This document shows, piece by piece, positions 17,990 to 34,438 of a stretch of DNA of 64,000 nucleotides (position 1 is its first letter; each line of letters begins with the position of its first letter). Origin of the DNA: Thermincola carboxydiphila (GTDB taxonomy: Bacteria > Bacillota > Thermincolia > Thermincolales > UBA2595); NCBI GenBank assembly GCA_016841045.1, contig JAENZX010000015.1:1-64000 (forward strand), written 5' to 3'. The notes beneath the pieces are model-generated. The model saw only the letters and a program-made list of their open reading frames with translations. It ran no database searches and was not told the DNA's origin. The translations under genes were made by a program, and so were the position numbers.

Positions 17990-18925
17990 TTAACCGTAAA
18001 ACAGATGTATAATCATTCCAAAAGTTACACTTATACTAAATAGCAGGCCTATAATTTTTATTGTTTGCTTTGTGTCAGGATTTTCTTTAAAAAGTATCAG
18101 CAGGCCAAGCCCGGAACCCGCAGATAACCCTGCAACAGTAGAACCGAAACTTAAACCGCCTCGCAGGAATACTTCAGTCACAGCAACTGACGAGGCACAG
18201 TTTGGTATTAGGCCGATGAGTGCTACGATAAATGGTTGAATAATACTTTGTCCTAAAAAGACATTTTGCAAATTATCTTCTCCCACTTTAAAAATTATCA
18301 TGTTAATAATAAGAGTTGCTGAAAAAATATATACAAATACCTTCACTGTATGGATAAGTGGATGTATTAAAATTTGTTTCAAATCCGGTTGTTTAGGATT
18401 ACAGCAGTCGTGACCACAGCACCCCTTGCCAAGTGTATCAACATCAATTAACAGTTCGCTATTTTGTTCTTCCTGTATTTCGGTTTTTTCAGAAGCAGCA
18501 CACACTTCGCTTTTTACTGCAGATTGGCCGGTCTTGTTTAAGGCAAAATCTAGTGCATAGCCGGATACAATGGCAATTATCGCCTTAACCCCCAATAACG
18601 GTAATATCAGGCCAACTTTGTCCGGGTGAGCCAGAATTATCGGTACTGCTTCATCAGATGTGGAAAGGTAAACTGCCAGTAAGGTTCCAACTGTAATACA
18701 CCTTTTTGTATAAAGAGCAGTCGATATAACCGAAAATCCACATTGAGGAATTATCCCAAATGCTGCTCCCAATGCCGGACCGGCTTTTCCCGCGGTTTTT
18801 ACTTTTGCTGCAATCTGATTTCCATACCGCGTCTCTGTAATGCTTATGCCAATATAAACAAGAATTAAAAAAGGTATCATCTTACCTGAATCTATTAAAG
18901 CATCCATAAATATATCAATCATCAT
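17990..18925 (-). CDS. ArsP_2-type heavy-metal/arsenic permease
   Basis: A 311-residue membrane protein resembling the ArsP_2 family (putative 10-TM heavy-metal exporter). Two homologous halves are visible, each with a cysteine-bearing helix start: GIIPQCGFSVISTALY (about residue 60) and GLIPNCASSVAVTEVF (about 245). The central cytoplasmic loop carries a cysteine/histidine cluster, GKGCCGHDCCNP (about residues 168-179), which looks like a metalloid-binding site. It lies upstream of mnmA with its own terminator and, in the 130-165 bases before its start, a dyad that recurs near 31.1 kb in the arsenic cluster. Arsenic is the most likely substrate; other thiophilic metals are possible. Confidence 0.78.
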   Translation of the reverse strand: MMIDIFMDALIDSGKMIPFLILVYIGISITETRYGNQIAAKVKTAGKAGPALGAAFGIIPQCGFSVISTALYTKRCITVGTLLAVYLSTSDEAVPIILAHPDKVGLILPLLGVKAIIAIVSGYALDFALNKTGQSAVKSEVCAASEKTEIQEEQNSELLIDVDTLGKGCCGHDCCNPKQPDLKQILIHPLIHTVKVFVYIFSATLIINMIIFKVGEDNLQNVFLGQSIIQPFIVALIGLIPNCASSVAVTEVFLRGGLSFGSTVAGLSAGSGLGLLILFKENPDTKQTIKIIGLLFSISVTFGMIIHLFYG

Positions 18926-24053: not shown

Positions 24054-25112
24054 CTATGCCAGTTTATTTTCCATATCAAAATACTTTCGTCCCCAGCCAA
24101 GAGCTACATTAACCAATGCAATCATTACCGGCACCTCGATAAGAGGACCAATTACGGCTGCAAAAGCCTGGCCGGACTCGATTCCAAAAACCGCAACCGC
24201 TACGGCTATCGCCAACTCGAAGTTGTTACTGGCCGCAGTGAAAGAAAGGCTGGTCGTCTGCGCGTAATTGACTCCTGCCTTTAGACTGAGGAAAAAGGAA
24301 ACACCGAACATTATTACAAAGTAAATTAACAGCGGAATAGCTATACGGACAACATCCATCGGCAATTTGACAATATAGCTGCCCTTGTAGGAGAACATAA
24401 CAACAATAGTAAACAGAAGTGCAATTAAAGCAAGAGGACTGATTTTGGGTACAAAAGTCTTTTCATACCATTCTTTGCCCTTTGCTGGTTCCAGGAATAG
24501 TCGGGTTAACATACCGGCAGCAAAAGGTATACCAAGGTAGATACCTACGCTCTTGGCTACTTCACCCATTGAAATATCAACTACAGCACCTGTAAGGCCA
24601 AATATTCCGGGAAGAACAGTAATAAAGACGTAGGCATATATCGAATAGAAGATAACCTGAAATATCGAATTAAAGGCCACCAGAGCTGCAGCATATTCAG
24701 AATCACCCTTGGCAAGACTGTTCCAGACTATTACCATGGCAATACACCGGGCAAGCCCGATTAAGATAAGGCCAACCATGTATTCGGGTCTATCCCCGAG
24801 TAATGCAATAGCTAAAATAAACATAAGAACAGGTCCGATAACCCAGTTTTGAACCAGTGACAAACCCAGAACTTTCGTATTCTTAAATACTTTTCCCAGT
24901 TCCCGGTAATTAACCTTCGCCAAGGGCGGGTACATCATTACGATAAGCCCCACAGCAATGGGTATAGAGGTAGTCCCAACAGACAACCTGTCTAAAAGAT
25001 CGGCCACTCCCGGGAAAATATACCCAACACCAACTCCGATGGCCATTGCAAGGAAAATCCATAACGTTAACAGTCTGTCCAACATAGATAGTTTAGCTTC
25101 TTTTTGCTGCAC
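24054..25112 (-). CDS. acr3: Arsenite efflux permease, ACR3 family
   Basis: A 352-residue, ten-helix carrier of the ACR3/bile-arsenite-riboflavin family, which extrudes As(III) from the cytoplasm using the proton gradient. ACR3 hallmarks are present: [21 protein letters not shown] with the essential Cys of helix 4, and [17 protein letters not shown]. It lies 34 bases after an arsR gene, so it forms a classical arsR-acr3 unit, and this is the firmest indication that the surrounding cluster deals with arsenic. Normal length, no UGA. Confidence 0.93.
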
Positions 25113-25146: not shown

Positions 25147-25557
25147 TTATTTAGCTTTCTGCTGCCTTTTTGTAAATGCCTCACATTTAGCTTTCTTTTG
25201 CTTATTTGCAAGTGTCTCACAAATGGACGGATCAGTTCTTACCATAGATTTTTGGAGACTTTCCACTTTCCTTCGAATAGGCGCTGCATAACTGCTTATT
25301 ACTTCCATATCTTCTGTTTCAAAAACATCCTTAAAAACACTGTCATTTAACGAATAATAAATCCATTTTCCCTCCCGGCTGTCTTTAACAAGCCCAGCCA
25401 GTCTGAGAATTTTAAGGTGATGAGAGATAGCGGGTTGAGACATATCTAATTTATCTATTATTTCACAAACACACATTTCATGTCCAGCAAGCATCTGTAT
25501 GATTTTCAACCTGGTCTCATCCCCAAGGGCTTTATAAAATTCCGCAATCTTTTTCAT
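25147..25557 (-). CDS. arsR: ArsR family repressor (CVC type)
   Basis: A 136-residue winged-helix repressor. The recognition region is SQPAISHHLKILRLAGLV, and the N-terminal side of the alpha-3 helix carries MCVCEIID, the CVC motif of As(III)-sensing ArsR proteins. The C-terminal tail is long, basic and has extra cysteines (SICETL, KAKCEAF). It precedes acr3 by 34 bases. It should release the operator upon As(III) binding. Confidence 0.9.
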   Translation of the reverse strand: MKKIAEFYKALGDETRLKIIQMLAGHEMCVCEIIDKLDMSQPAISHHLKILRLAGLVKDSREGKWIYYSLNDSVFKDVFETEDMEVISSYAAPIRRKVESLQKSMVRTDPSICETLANKQKKAKCEAFTKRQQKAK

Positions 25558-25720: not shown

Positions 25721-26548
25721 TTAACTTCAACAGGAAGAACTGTCTGAACTGGTCTGGCAGCATCCTCCAGCTTGAGTATCTGTATTTTCTTTTCTACGCT
25801 TACCTGCAAAGAATTTTTGAAGATTTTCAGGTACTTCTGTCCTTACTTCAGAATCTGCGTTTCCCCTGGTTCCCCCATATACTTCCCGCAAGATAGCATC
25901 AATGATCATACCTTTTGGCGGAGCGGTATATTCTTTGCCCTGATATGTCCAAATCCGGCAGTCAACACTGTCACCGCACAGGTCACCACAAGAATCACAT
26001 AGAGCTTCTTTGACCTCCAACTGAATATCCTGCCCATTTATTCTAATAGTTGGCGAACTTACAAAGCCTAAATTACGGGCTTGTTCTTCGGATTGAATAT
26101 GTATCTTTATAACATTCACTTCAACGCCGGTCGTCTTTAAAACCTGTGCCACTTCCGTTATGGCTTCATCCAGATTGGATTCTGTTGACTGACACCACTT
26201 ACAAACGCTCAGGTCAAGGTACATAAATTCTATGTCCAGATTTCTTCGTATCGATTGAGATTGTTCAATTTCTTTTTCCTTGGAAAGCGGTTGCATATAT
26301 TTTTGGATTTCCTGAAGTATATCTTCTTCCTTAGGTCGTTGGCTGCATGTGCCTTGATTTGAGTAAATCACACTACCATTTACGATCACCTGATAAATAC
26401 CGTTATGCCCTTCTTTTAGTTCCGCATTTATTCCAAACTTGTTTTTGATTGATGCCGCCAAACCGGAGGCTAAAGAAAGGAAGCCTCACTCAACACAATA
26501 GGTAATTTCAACATTTACATCTCTCGTTACATTACTTGAATCGCTCAT
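25721..26548 (-). CDS. Selenoprotein: SelW/Rdx-DUF2703 fusion
   Basis: A 275-residue fusion read through a TGA at 26486-26488. Residues 1-75 form a Rdx (SelW/SelT-like) domain, VEITYCVEUGFLSLASG, whose CxxU redox site puts U at residue 21; without recoding the frame has no credible start and loses half the redox motif. Residues about 85-240 form a DUF2703 domain with CKWCQ, a CDSCGDLCGDSVDCR cluster and PPKGMIIDAILREVYGG. The C-terminus is Cys-rich (GGCCQTSS...SSSC) and then meets a second TGA (25727-25729) followed by AGT TAA, which could give a terminal CUS. ATG at 26548 follows AGGGGGAT. It lies between the DUF2703 paralog and arsR-acr3. Likely a thiol/selenol protein handling arsenic; the first Sec is firm, the second tentative. 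Confidence 0.88.
26454..26470 (-). promoter_or_regulatory. SECIS candidate of Rdx-DUF2703 gene
   Basis: The hairpin GCCtCC-GGTTT-GGcGGC begins 15 bases after the TGA and presents a GG-starting loop about 21 bases from it, in the range for bacterial SECIS elements. Confidence 0.6.
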
Positions 26549-26684: not shown

Positions 26685-27122
26685 TTAGCAGCAACCACTA
26701 CTATTACAACAGCCGGAATTTACCGTCGGCGCTTTTTTGGTTTCTTCTATACCTAATACCTTGAATGCCGCCTGCCGGATGGCCTTGGCAGGTATGTCTT
26801 CATACTCGTAGCCTTCATATTTTATAGTTCGGCAGTAAGTTTCGTTTCCCAGTAAAGCAGTACAGGAATCACAGTAGTTCTCAGATACCTCGATATCTAA
26901 AATCTCTTCAATGGGAACTCCGTTAAAGAGGATAGTATTTGATTGAGGAATTTGGGTATCGTCAAGTTTGGTCTCAAACCATTCTACCTCAATCCCCAGT
27001 GGTTGTAAGGCTCTGTTTAATCTTTTTACTTCCTGATTAAGATTTTCACCCGTATCATAACAACGGTTGCAGGTCTCCCCTGCCACATCAAGGTGCTTCC
27101 ATTCAATTTTTAGTTTTTTCAT
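26685..27122 (-). CDS. DUF2703 family protein, all-Cys paralog
   Basis: A 145-residue DUF2703 protein. It starts KKLKIEWKHLDVAGETCNRCYDTG with a CxxC, has ENYCDSCTALLGNETYC in the middle, and ends in SGCCNSSGCC before a TAA stop. The terminal GCC aligns with the SSC-TGA and GSC-TGA ends of its two larger paralogs, so Cys occupies the place where they may carry Sec. The thioredoxin-like fold of the family is inferred. AGGAGG precedes the start. Probable role: thiol-based binding or reduction of a metalloid. Confidence 0.85.
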   Translation of the reverse strand: MKKLKIEWKHLDVAGETCNRCYDTGENLNQEVKRLNRALQPLGIEVEWFETKLDDTQIPQSNTILFNGVPIEEILDIEVSENYCDSCTALLGNETYCRTIKYEGYEYEDIPAKAIRQAAFKVLGIEETKKAPTVNSGCCNSSGCC

Positions 27123-28330: not shown

Positions 28331-29476
28331 TTAATATTCCCCTCAGGTTTTACACTCACCAACCGGTGCTTCAATGTTTTGTTTTTCCGAATAGGGCTGC
28401 GGGGAATGTATTTTGTCAGCCAGGGCCTTCACCTTTGACGCCCCAACGGTCATGGCAATGGCAACGGCTTCGTTTAATTCGGCTTCAGGGATGTTAAGTT
28501 CCTTTGCAACTGCAAAGCAATATTGAGTTCATGGTTCACAACCGGCAGCCAATGAAGCAGCCAGGGCAATCAAATGCTTTGTCTTTCGGCCCAATATACC
28601 TTCCTGCCCATAGATGGATGAATGAAACTGGTCATATGCATTGAACATATTGTTTTCACCTCCTGCCGGAACAGATTCCTCTCTTTGTTTATAATAAGGA
28701 CACTTATCCATTCTGCACCCATGAGGATGACGCTCAACATGCATACAAACAGTTATTTTTCCAGGTAACGGCAGGGATACATTTAAGTAATCTTTGACCA
28801 ACTTAACCGACTCGTAGAGAGCAGTTCTGACAAAGTTTTTGCAGCAGCACGGACCTGTTTGATCTGCAATAGCATTTACTATTTTACCTACAACTCTCAT
28901 CGTAGCTGCTGTTTCCTGATTCTTGGGACATGCGGCACCTAAAATAACACTAAAGCAGGCTCCAATTGCCGGAGCCACTCCACAAACTCCTGTTAGTCCG
29001 CAGTAACCCCCAATCGCCTGTTTCCTTGTCCGATTAAACACTTCATCGATTTGTTCGTTTGATATTTTGATAGTTCCTTCATTTTTTATTGCAGCCATCA
29101 AAGCACCCGCAGCGATCCATGCATTTTCGCAGCCTAGCATGGGTACTTTGTCAATATAGCCCATAAGAGTTTCCGCAATCTCAAAAGGATTGCGTGACTC
29201 TGAATTTAAAACAAATCCCTTTATTGTATCGAAAACACCCTTACCATGACACTCATCACAAATATAATGACCATTGGGGCAACTAATATTAGCAAAGTCT
29301 GCTTTCCCACAGCGAAAACAAATAAGTTTTTTGCCGCTATCAAAATACTCCAGTTTAGTGCCACAGATTTGGCAGTCTTCTGTATTAATTTCTGTCTGAT
29401 GTTGACCAGCATCGTTACCAGGGCCTCAACAACCTGTCGGTTCAGCATCATCAAGGTTCTTTAACTCCTCAACCAC
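28331..29476 (-). CDS. Selenoprotein: Zn-ribbon/DUF5714/AhpD-like
   Basis: One gene spanning two or three in-frame TGA codons. From GTG at 29476 (AAGGTG upstream): U17 in PTGCUGP (TGA 29426-29428); a zinc-ribbon region EDCQICG, LICFRCG, CPNGHYICDECHG (about 29-75); a DUF5714 domain with GGYCGLTGVCG, GPCCCKNF and CRMDKCPYY; then an AhpD/carboxymuconolactone-decarboxylase-like domain HLIALAASLAAGCEPUTQYCFAV with U316 in a CxxU site (TGA 28529-28531), followed by AELNEAVAIAMTVGA. A third TGA (28343-28345) follows GECKT; reading it as Sec would give CKTUGEY and a TAA at 28331, otherwise the protein ends at 28343 with 377 residues. Read conventionally, this locus would be three meaningless fragments. 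Role: probably a peroxidase/disulfide-type redox enzyme for the cluster. Confidence 0.87.
28502..28517 (-). promoter_or_regulatory. SECIS candidate for U316
   Basis: CTTTGC-AGTT-GCAAAG hairpin, loop 17 bases after the TGA at 28529-28531, with G in the second loop position. Confidence 0.7.
29398..29413 (-). promoter_or_regulatory. SECIS candidate for U17
   Basis: Short stem GATG/CATC with loop CTGGTCAA begins 12 bases after the TGA at 29426-29428. The loop holds GGUC, as in the E. coli fdhF element, but the stem is short. Confidence 0.5.
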
Positions 29477-31258: not shown

Positions 31259-32275
31259 CTATCTCAAAACAAATGACCAGGCATTAAACAAATAACCGAT
31301 AATAATGATACCTACCGAAACTATAGCAGTAAAAATTGCTAGGAGTTTAGGCTTTACTACTTTACTAAGCAAAATTAGTGAAGGAAGCGATAACGCAGTA
31401 ACTGACATCATAAATTCTAATACAGTACCAATTCCCACATTCTTAGCAAATAATGCTTCTGCTATTGGTAAAGTTCCAAAGATATCTGCATACATTGGAA
31501 TACCCACGACAGTAGCAAGTATTATCGCAAACGGATTATTATCTCCAACCACATTTTCTATGATTGATTGAGGAATCCAATTGTGTATTACAGCTCCTAT
31601 TCCAACACCAATTAGAACATATAACCATACTCTTTTAATAATATCAATAACCTGGGTCTTTGAGTATGATATCCTTTCCTCACGTGTCATTTTAATAATT
31701 TCAGAATCAACATTTTCTATCTCTTTAACATAACCTTCCACATACTTTTCGAGGCCCAACTTATCAATAAGAGTTCCACCAATAACTGCTAAAACCAAAC
31801 CAACAACGACGTAAGCTATGGCTATTTTGGCTCCAAAGAAAGACATTAATAATAGTATTGATGCTAAATCTACAAGGGGGGAGGATATCAAAAACGAAAA
31901 AGTCACCCCTATCGGCAAGCCTGCCGATGTGAAACCGATAAATATCGGTATACTGGAGCAGCTTCAGAAAGGAGTAATAGTTCCTAATAAAGCTCCATAA
32001 ATATTTCCTTTGATACCCTTCATTCCACCAAGAATCTTCTTGGTTCTTTCAGGCGGGAAGTAACTTTGAATGTATGATATTAAAAAGATGAGCACCGATA
32101 ATAATATGAAAATCTTTATTGTATCATAGATAAAGAAATGAATACTTCCCCCCAGCTTCTCCTGGACGGATAAACCAAATACTCGCTCCACAACAAGTCT
32201 GACAGATTCTGAGAGCCATGTCATTCTTAAAATTTGATCATTCAGCCAACTGAAGATTTGAGTTACTATATTCAT
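31259..32275 (-). CDS. Selenoprotein permease, YraQ/DUF318-like
   Basis: A 338-residue permease read through a TGA at 31964-31966 (U104). The joined protein has about eight membrane helices. The junction reads GALLGTITPFUSCSSIPIFIGFTSAG, where the family normally has TPFCSCSSIP, so Sec takes the place of the first conserved Cys at the membrane-embedded motif; the second half carries the matching VVGIPMYADIFGTLPIAEALF. Split at the TGA, neither part would be functional and the second would lack a ribosome site. Related permeases export organoarsenicals or metals (ArsP-like). It has its own terminator and is preceded by an 80-residue gene on the same strand. Confidence 0.88.
31911..31949 (-). 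promoter_or_regulatory. Tandem hairpins after permease UGA
   Basis: Hairpin 1 (31934-31949, ACCGAT-ATTT-ATCGGT) is 14 bases from the TGA but lacks a G at the loop start. Hairpin 2 (31911-31928, ATCGGCA-GGCT-TGCCGAT) has a GG loop but lies 42 bases from the TGA. One of them, or both stacked, may serve as SECIS. Confidence 0.5.
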
Positions 32276-32357: not shown

Positions 32358-32606
32358 TTAACATCAGGATTTAGCTATAAAATTTTTATATGCCGCAAGC
32401 AGTGCTAATTTGTATTCTAGCTCTGCACCTGGTGGGATAAAATTTTTTTGCTTCACAATTTCTAATAGTTTTTCAGCAGCTTTTTCATCCCCTAAACCAA
32501 GGCCTTTAACAGCCTGAAAAGCCTCATCTACTCTGGTTAGCCCCACCTGTATGCCACCAGCCGTCAGCATATAAACCGGGTTTTTGGGGTCACAACATTG
32601 ACTCAT
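32358..32606 (-). CDS. 80-aa protein, N-domain of DUF2703 paralog
   Basis: An 80-residue protein up to a TGA at 32364-32366. It starts MSQCCDPKNPVYML with a vicinal CC and continues VGLTRVDEAFQAVKGLGL ... GAELEYKLALLAAYK, the same domain as the first 75 residues of the DUF2703 protein at 30154. If the TGA were Sec the protein would end KSUC at a TAA (32358); no clear hairpin supports this, so a plain stop at 32364 is equally or more likely. It lies between the CxxC mini-glutaredoxin and the permease. Function unknown. Confidence 0.75.
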
Positions 32607-32698: not shown

Positions 32699-32941
32699 CT
32701 ATTTCACTGCTTCAGTAATAATTTCAGTTAATTTTGCCTTGGAAGGCACGGATCCTGATAATTTTACCTGACCGTCAATCACAAGTGCAGGTGTAGACAT
32801 TACTCCCATGGCAACTATATCCTTGAATTCCCTTACATGGCTTACAGCTGCGTCAATGTTTTGCTCAGCCAAGACGTCAAAAACCATCTGCTCAAGCTTA
32901 TTGCAGTTTGCACACCCAGCTCCAAGAACTTTAATTTCCAA
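32699..32941 (-). CDS. Thioredoxin-fold protein (MTH895-like)
   Basis: An 80-residue small thioredoxin/glutaredoxin-like protein. The active site GAGCANCNKLE gives CxxC at residues 10-13 and the cis-Pro loop is MGVMSTPALVIDG. This 'TM0996/MTH895' group commonly accompanies arsR, permease and ccdA genes and is thought to pass electrons to a metalloid or a permease. Its start is two bases after the arsR stop, so the genes are co-transcribed. It keeps Cys where several neighbours use Sec. Confidence 0.9.
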   Translation of the reverse strand: MEIKVLGAGCANCNKLEQMVFDVLAEQNIDAAVSHVREFKDIVAMGVMSTPALVIDGQVKLSGSVPSKAKLTEIITEAVK

Positions 32942-32943
32942 AA

Positions 32944-33282
32944 CTATTCACCCCTTTCTTTGCTTTGCCTTTTGCTTAACAGTCCCAAAGTTTTGTTGAC
33001 CTGTGATACCAGTATGTCCTCAACAAGTTCAAGTATTTGATATACCTGAGGATATTCAACTTTATATATTACCTTCAGGCCTTCCTTACGGAAACTTACA
33101 ATACCCTGCTTCCTCAAAATTGCAAGGTGTTGGGACATATTCGACTGCTCAATATCAAGATCTTCGGTAAACTCACAGACACATCTTTCACTTTCTCTTA
33201 AATGTTTTAATATTCGAACCCTTGTCGGATGCGCCAGAGCTTTAAAAAATTCTGCTTCCATTGAAAACAGCCTTTCATCCAT
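32944..33282 (-). CDS. ArsR family repressor, second copy
   Basis: A 112-residue winged-helix repressor. The alpha-3 metal site reads SERCVCEFTEDL (CVC) and the recognition helix SNMSQHLAILRKQGIV. It is more distant from the first ArsR than a recent duplicate would be. It lies within the trx(Sec)-ccdA-arsR-trx-like run, so it probably senses As(III) or Sb(III) and autoregulates that operon. No canonical operator could be assigned by eye. Confidence 0.9.
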   Translation of the reverse strand: MDERLFSMEAEFFKALAHPTRVRILKHLRESERCVCEFTEDLDIEQSNMSQHLAILRKQGIVSFRKEGLKVIYKVEYPQVYQILELVEDILVSQVNKTLGLLSKRQSKERGE

Positions 33283-33306: not shown

Positions 33307-33996
33307 TCAAGCTGTCCAGGCGAAATAAAATCCAATCCCAATTAATATTATCCCGGCTGCTTTCTCAAAAACACCTGCCCATTTGGACAGACCGGGTAGT
33401 CCTTTAGCGAACCCAGTAAATGTCCCTGCAATTATCACCGGCACACCCCTACCCAAACCGTAAAGAAACAACAATACGCCTCCGTAGGCAATTTTACCTT
33501 TGCTCATGACAAGTGATAATATGGCGAAAAGTACCGGCGTACCACACTGCGAACCAGCGAGGCCAATCATTAACCCCATTAGGAATGCCGGTATAATACC
33601 TTGGCGGCTGGGTCTGCGTAGTATCTTTGAACCTATGTCTGGAAGATTAAACTTTATAACTCCCAGCATTTTAAGACCAACTATTATACTCACCGCAGCA
33701 GCAATATAAATCATCAATGATTTTGATGTACCGAAAATACCACCTATAATTGAAACAGTGACACCCAATAACGCAAAAGTTGTTGATGTACCGAGAGTGA
33801 ACGCCAAAGACAACCAAAAGCTCCTGGCTTTGCACACATCAGAAGTTCCGCCTACATAAGCCATAAGAACTGGAATCATTGATATATTACATGGCCCTAT
33901 ACTGGTAACAATCCCGCCAAAAAATACAAGTAATACAGCAAGGATTGAATATCCCTGTAACAGTTGGGACAAATAGTGAGTAACAACTTCCTCCAT
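33307..33996 (-). CDS. ccdA: CcdA/DsbD-type thiol electron carrier
   Basis: A 229-residue, six-helix membrane protein of the CcdA family that moves reducing equivalents across the membrane. The two helix-embedded cysteine motifs are GIVTSIGPCNISMIPV (about residue 33) and GLAGSQCGTPVLFAI (about 150), both with the usual neighbouring Pro. Its start is one base after the stop of the Sec-containing thioredoxin-like gene, so it probably reduces, or is reduced by, that extracytoplasmic protein. Normal length. Confidence 0.9.
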   Translation of the reverse strand: MEEVVTHYLSQLLQGYSILAVLLVFFGGIVTSIGPCNISMIPVLMAYVGGTSDVCKARSFWLSLAFTLGTSTTFALLGVTVSIIGGIFGTSKSLMIYIAAAVSIIVGLKMLGVIKFNLPDIGSKILRRPSRQGIIPAFLMGLMIGLAGSQCGTPVLFAILSLVMSKGKIAYGGVLLFLYGLGRGVPVIIAGTFTGFAKGLPGLSKWAGVFEKAAGIILIGIGFYFAWTA

Positions 33997-33997
33997 C

Positions 33998-34438
33998 CTA
34001 TTTGCCCTCCAACAATGCCTTTAATTTCGTGTTCATTTCTTCCTGGTTAATCACACCAACATAATTAAAGGTTGATTCACCTTTTGAGTTCAAAAAATAC
34101 GTAGTGGGAATATACTGAATCTGGTATTGAGCACATAACGCCTGATCAGCCGGGTCATTCACGTTTATATTAATAAATGCTACTTTCCCCTCAAATTTAG
34201 GTTTTAGCCACTGGAACACCCGTTCCATTTCTACACAGGACTGTCAGGTCGTGGAATGGAATAAGAGCCAAGCTGGCTGCCCCTTTTGTTTAGCCTGTTC
34301 GATTAAACCTGCAGCCTGGGAAACAGAACTGTTTGAAGAAAAATCTTGCTGGACATTTTCTGTTTTAACTCCTTTGGCGGCAATTAACGCAACCACCGCT
34401 GCAAGTAAAACCATCAACACTATTGCCTTTAACTTCAA
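33998..34438 (-). CDS. Selenoprotein thioredoxin-like, UxxC site
   Basis: A 146-residue membrane-anchored thioredoxin-fold protein read through a TGA at 34244-34246. Residues 4-21 are a signal anchor (AIVLMVLLAAVVALIAA). The active site is FHSTTUQSCVEME with U65 in the place of the first catalytic Cys; the second part has VAFININVNDPADQALC and the cis-Pro loop IQYIPTTYF. Both halves are needed for the fold, and the downstream piece alone has no signal or active site. TTG start with GGGGAGGG. A six-base stem with loop GGGT follows the UGA. It lies directly before ccdA, its likely electron partner. Confidence 0.93.
34212..34227 (-). promoter_or_regulatory. SECIS candidate of thioredoxin-like gene
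   Basis: TGGAAC-GGGT-GTTCCA hairpin; loop begins about 22 bases after the TGA with G first. This is the best SECIS match in the cluster. Confidence 0.75.

Follow-up and report, generated by a model that had tools for sequence, protein, structure and literature searches.

A cluster of arsenic-type genes with in-frame UGA codons

The DNA analysed here (the window) is a stretch of 64,000 nucleotides from a contig of Thermincola carboxydiphila. From 34.4 to 24.0 kb it carries a cluster of genes encoding, in this order, a membrane thioredoxin, CcdA, an ArsR regulator, an ArsE-family thioredoxin, a permease, DUF2703 proteins, a second ArsR, and ACR3; all features of the cluster located below are on the minus strand. 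The permease gene (31259–32275) runs from an ATG at 32275 to a TAA and contains a single TGA at codon 104 (31964–31966). The frame is open throughout once this UGA is read through, and then encodes an ArsP_1 (PF03773) permease of 338 residues in which the UGA would specify selenocysteine (Sec). These coordinates agree with those given in the sequence-only reading, in which the strand was left unstated. The UGA is found in the context ...LLGTITPF-U-SCSSIPIFIGF..., and the Pfam ArsP_1 match spans it (residues 43–331, 222.5 bits for a cutoff of 32.3).

On one side of the permease lie an 80-aa protein of no family (32364–32606), the small thioredoxin of the ArsE/MTH895 family with its CANC motif (32699–32941; TIGR00412, 96 bits, cutoff 62), the ArsR/SmtB-family regulator (32944–33282; NF033788, 100 bits, cutoff 55; PF01022), the transmembrane electron carrier CcdA/DsbD (33307–33996; PF02683), and the membrane-anchored thioredoxin (33998–34438). 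At the other end, the cluster closes with the second ArsR/SmtB regulator (25147–25557; NF033788, 110 bits) and the arsenite efflux transporter ACR3 (24054–25112; TIGR00832, 462 bits, cutoff 283). The 80-aa protein has a stretch in common with the N-terminus of a DUF2703 protein (30963–30160), GLTRVDEAFQ...PGAE.EYK...LLAAY, and its gene therefore appears to be a copy of this domain that has become detached. A DUF2703 protein encoded at 27122–26685 is 90% identical to its counterpart in genome G007 (L063:16539–16973), which is above most nearby shared genes and possibly reflects a recent transfer. Finally, a second PF03773 relative is encoded at 18005–18820 on the minus strand; it scores 29 bits to ArsP_1 and 258 bits (cutoff 100) to the "arsenic efflux protein" model NF037962.

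Beside the permease, three further selenoprotein candidates contribute four more UGAs, which brings the cluster to five UGA sites, spread over four genes in 9 kb. The membrane-anchored thioredoxin is likely a selenoprotein: its UGA (34246–34244) lies in the motif STT-U-QSC and is trailed by a 6-bp hairpin with a GGGU loop. The ortholog in genome G002 (L060), which belongs to the window's own family, has a UGA at the same site (STK-U-PSC), though the G002 permease has Cys. The pair CcdA plus membrane thioredoxin was found in four genomes of this family, the thioredoxin having Sec in G000 and G002. Another candidate is the fusion of a SelW-like (Rdx, CVE-U) domain with DUF2703 (25727–26548; UGA 26488–26486), which has Sec relatives at L063 (G007) and L016 and whose DUF2703 domain is near a DF-family (seleno)protein model. 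The fusion of an MbdU-like/DUF5714 domain with AhpD (28346–29476) would be a double selenoprotein, with UGAs at 29428–29426 and 28531–28529 in the motifs TGC-U-GP and GCEP-U; its N-terminal MbdU/DUF5714 half scores 414 bits, under the cutoff of 600, and no NCBIfam model is over its cutoff for the fusion. Since no hairpin excess over synonymous shuffles was found at the DUF5714 and SelW UGAs, the candidacy of these two proteins is based on motif and homology.

Codon 104 in the permease family

Full-length homologs of the permease, with identities reaching 87%, were found in a search of 300 relatives, and several of them contain one TGA. In addition, about 85,000 named genomes were scanned with an exact pattern for the UGA motif. 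Of the resulting 25 stretches, 16 contain a genuine read-through permease, while nine are chance matches without a permease (L064, L065, L070, L071, L075, L076, L077, L083, and L088). The window's own clade has AGT as its second Ser codon and for this reason escaped the pattern, so the named Sec relatives are drawn from sister clades. We did not retain matches with other stops or with a UGA elsewhere (G114, G057, and others); in G114, for instance, the UGA is the terminal stop.

Overall, a UGA at codon 104 is present in 21 non-redundant genes (the window gene and 20 others) of 18 genomes from Bacillota and Actinomycetota, and four cultured isolates carry it, namely Pelotomaculum terephthalicicum, P. 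propionicicum, Desulfoscipio geothermicus, and Desulfotruncus alcoholivorax. Among 94 non-redundant homologs, codon 104 is TGC or TGT (Cys) in 73 and TGA in 21, with no other codon. This tabulation bears out the initial claim of Sec in a transporter at TPF-U-SCSSIP where homologs have Cys. The motif itself (T-P-F-U-S-C-S-S-I-P, 31946–31975), whose conservation had been singled out as a point to check, is strictly conserved, residues P102, F103, C/U104, C106, S107, and P110 being invariant in 71 homologs. The U/C pair had also been described as vicinal; what is present is a U-x-C pair with one intervening residue (U-S-C).

A maximum-likelihood tree of the permease homologs requires seven Sec/Cys changes, six of which are forced by well-supported branches; these counts do not separate gain from loss. 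Judging from the sequences compared, the Sec/Cys swap has arisen or been lost several times in this family. G002 has its Cys permease inside an otherwise Sec clade. As for G007, its Sec permease is accompanied by a Cys paralog, the two lying in separate arsenic-type clusters (C8 at L051, C18 at L063), and the Cys paralog adjoins CcdA and a thioredoxin.

Decoding of the permease UGA

The region downstream of the UGA was evaluated according to bSECIS criteria, i.e., a stem-loop with its loop 16–37 nt after the UGA, an MFE ≤ −7.5, and a G in the first two loop positions. The window permease has a SECIS-like hairpin, with its upper stem-loop at 31934–31949, whose 6-bp stem, 20-nt distance from the UGA to the loop, and energy of −10.2 kcal/mol agree with the stem, spacing, and energy criteria; the loop, AUUU, has no G in its first two positions and thus departs from the loop rule. 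The loop G is present in 10 of the 21 Sec permease genes and absent in 11, including the window gene. Given that some putative bSECIS elements are reported to deviate from the published model (PMC13188914), this departure was not counted as excluding Sec.

A hairpin with the loop starting 20 nt past the UGA is found in 20 of the 21 UGA permease genes. When folding was compared with that of shuffles preserving the amino acids and each gene's own codon usage, the mean z was −2.32 for the Sec genes versus −0.07 for the Cys genes (Mann-Whitney p = 1.6e-8, the sequences being related and not independent), and at eight other offsets, used as controls, z was near 0. The window gene alone gives a modest signal (z about −1.8, rank about 0.05–0.06). 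Furthermore, compensatory changes preserve the upper stem across the Sec rows, with GC/CG/UA at one pair and GC/AU/GU/CG at another, whereas this preservation is not seen in near Cys rows. The Ser codon right after codon 104 (31963–31961), which pairs in the lower stem of the hairpin, is AGC in 18 of 21 Sec genes versus 1 of 73 Cys genes, nearly all of the latter having TCN or AGT. An AGC after the UGA could possibly serve as a simple marker of the Sec genes in this family.

The genome encodes selA, selB, selD, and tRNA-Sec, all found over cutoff, and its own fdhA and selD contain Sec in the classical motifs CARLUHS and SCSAGUAAK. selB was found in all the Sec-permease genomes tested. Among the nearest Cys relatives, none was detected over cutoff in G232, G205, G298, and G092; on the other hand, most other Cys-permease relatives tested do have selB, and Sec would therefore be optional rather than required in this permease.

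Could the UGA be a true stop, with the gene reduced to two fragments or a pseudogene, or could it stem from a sequencing error? UGA does stop translation in cells devoid of the Sec machinery, and standard ORF calling splits the gene into two pieces of 103 and 219 aa. However, the permease is collinear past the UGA with uninterrupted Cys homologs (identity up to 87%), and purifying selection continues beyond this codon, dN/dS being 0.06–0.12 on its 3′ side and in the same range on its 5′ side. Downstream of the UGA, the earliest codon that could initiate translation is a TTG at a distance of 48 nt; it falls within the conserved motif and has no Shine-Dalgarno sequence. A two-gene split with its own ribosome site, the outcome that the sequence-only reading had regarded as fatal to its proposal, was therefore looked for without success. 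The presence of UGA at the same codon in homologs (21 genes from two phyla, four cultured isolates among their sources) excludes a split gene, a pseudogene, or a sequencing error, and this genome carries the Sec machinery; we therefore consider termination at codon 104 extremely improbable. Insertion of another amino acid, through Trp or near-cognate suppression, appears just as improbable: the loop of the window hairpin is indeed off the SECIS consensus, but the aligned residue is always Cys and never Trp or Arg, selB accompanies the UGA gene in every Sec-bearing genome tested, and the hairpin is under selection in UGA genes only. Based on these comparisons, UGA 104 is almost certainly decoded as selenocysteine, a reading whose support comes close to the most that sequence comparison can give.

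Predicted function and precedents of the Sec permease

The gene neighbourhood recurs in the other Sec lineages, in which ArsR, ArsE-thioredoxin, permease, and ACR3 form a common set and the ArsE-type protein adjoins the permease in most cases. The Cys permease relatives are accompanied by ArsR and a small thioredoxin, and Cys homologs also occur alongside arsC, ACR3, and arsH in named arsenic islands, for instance on plasmids of Acinetobacter pseudolwoffii and Pseudorhizobium banfieldiae NT-26. The arsenic context is thus a strong one. Since ArsR, an ArsE-type thioredoxin, and ACR3 are its neighbours, the window permease would, by analogy, most likely export As(III) or organo-As(III), and a role in arsenic-related efflux is, in our judgement, likely.

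Well-studied selenoproteins are almost all soluble redox enzymes. The sequence-only reading had called Sec in a transporter core very unusual; the location in a transporter core stands, but the rarity was overstated. A 2026 catalogue of 119 prokaryotic selenoprotein families/subfamilies lists the UxC form of the SO_0444 Cu/Zn efflux transporter, annotated in GenBank, as well as predicted Sec in MerT-like proteins, E1-E2 cation (P-type) ATPases, YeeE/YedE, and SaoP (PMC13188914). These last four resemble the permease in combining predicted Sec with membrane transport, mostly of metals, while their families and motifs are unrelated to it. SO_0444 (NF033936), a Cu/Zn efflux protein according to mutant fitness (PMC3219624), is a related permease from another branch of the same Pfam family, and its C-S-C aligns with the U-S-C described here, so that Sec at the aligned position is not without precedent. 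The two proteins differ in motif (LCSCG versus TPFUSCS), the window permease scores 102 bits against the cutoff of 300 for SO_0444 (its Sec homologs 91–114) and is not assigned to it, and SO_0444 is present in only one of the 300 relatives searched. The best NCBIfam match is SaoE (NF040736), an efflux component of the Sec-assisted organometallic (SAO) system, which is encoded in a selenoprotein-rich operon. The permease does not qualify as SaoE either, with 112 bits against a cutoff of 325 (Sec homologs 117–136), and no sao gene family is over cutoff among the genes scanned; unlike the permease, for which Sec is predicted, SaoE is not among the selenoproteins of the review (PMC13188914).

ArsP of C. 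jejuni (TC 2.A.119) is, like the window protein, a PF03773 permease, the likeness being one of family and description. Its substrates include MAs(III) and trivalent roxarsone, whereas arsenite is not exported (PMC6205960); it coexists with Acr3 in the ars operon (PMC6205960; PMC7176098) and, unlike the window permease, is described without selenocysteine. None of the NCBIfam models (June 2026) names the window permease or its Sec relatives above cutoff, and no description of this subfamily was found in the literature searched, which spanned part of the main selenoprotein-discovery work.

Two AlphaFold models of the permease (pLDDT 79.5 and 82.4; pTM 0.74 and 0.79) contain a helix break at residues 101–104, flanked by helices of 14 and 13 residues, each too short to span the membrane alone, and a matching break at 259–264 in the second half of the protein; the halves align weakly (E 0.0028, probability 11%). 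Foldseek found no PDB fold match at E 0.001, and no PDB relative was found by sequence. The most probable Foldseek match is TRAP SiaQM (prob 0.99, but E 0.05 and TM 0.43), followed by concentrative nucleoside transporters (prob 0.75–0.89), both of which are elevator transporters with re-entrant hairpins. We infer from the models that U104 and C106 may sit at the tip of a re-entrant hairpin in the substrate pocket.

In the mechanism that we propose, SelA, SelB, SelC, and SelD of the cell would insert Sec at UGA 104, steered by the stem-loop just downstream, and the U-S-C pair at the hairpin tip would line the substrate pocket. Together, its selenolate and thiolate would bind a thiophilic trivalent arsenical (most likely an organo-As(III), methylated or otherwise; As(III) and Sb(III) are further possibilities), which the permease would let go on the outer side, while the neighbouring ArsE-type thioredoxin may keep the U-S-C pair reduced or remove bound substrate. 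Compared with sulfur, selenium offers tighter binding and faster ligand exchange, and the residue is deprotonated at neutral pH. Cys homologs would do the same job without selenium, which would explain the repeated Sec/Cys exchange. The odds that the U/C pair ligates the substrate directly seem to us about even, and those that the ArsE-type thioredoxin is a partner of the permease slightly lower. Both roles suggested for the pair in the sequence-only reading, As(III) binding and a redox step, would be consistent with the observations.

Two other functions deserve consideration, each of which we regard as rather unlikely. A selenoprotein transporter that expels soft metals or organometals generally (Cu, Zn, Hg, organomercury) and not arsenic, comparable to SO_0444 or SaoE, would fit the nearest NCBIfam models, SaoE at 112–136 bits and SO_0444 at 91–114 bits, although both are under cutoff, and ArsR-family regulators respond to many metals; yet the recurring neighbours are ACR3 and an ArsE-type thioredoxin, and the Cys homologs adjoin arsC, arsH, and ACR3. 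Alternatively, U-x-C could be a redox centre, engaged in electron or disulfide transfer or in reduction of the substrate during its passage, with electrons from the operon thioredoxins and CcdA. The ArsE thioredoxin next to the permease at most loci and the CcdA-membrane thioredoxin pair in the four family genomes noted above, two of them with Sec in this thioredoxin, are consistent with this possibility, but several Sec lineages have neither CcdA nor a second thioredoxin at the locus, within the limited flanks available, and the pair is spaced C-x-C instead of the usual CxxC. Taken together, an ArsP_1-family selenoprotein permease with Sec at 104 and the proposed U-S-C mechanism of arsenical export is the reading that we hold to be probable. 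A broader picture, in which an uncatalogued arsenic-permease selenoprotein subfamily uses selenium as a direct ligand in the transport path and forms a selenium-assisted arsenic detoxification island together with the thioredoxin and the SelW-DUF2703 and MbdU-like/AhpD selenoproteins, is put forward tentatively; the surrounding cluster of UGA genes may even outweigh the permease itself as the story.

The finding places selenium in the probable substrate pocket of a transporter from a family in which at least six exchanges between Sec and Cys have occurred at a single codon. Sec and Cys homologs that are 84–87% identical to each other offer a way to measure the effect of a single Se-for-S exchange on metalloid transport. 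Finally, genes of this permease family in Sec-using anaerobes, including the Pelotomaculum and Desulfoscipio isolates, risk being annotated as truncated or split; arsenic resistance may therefore be under-read in anaerobic soils and digesters.
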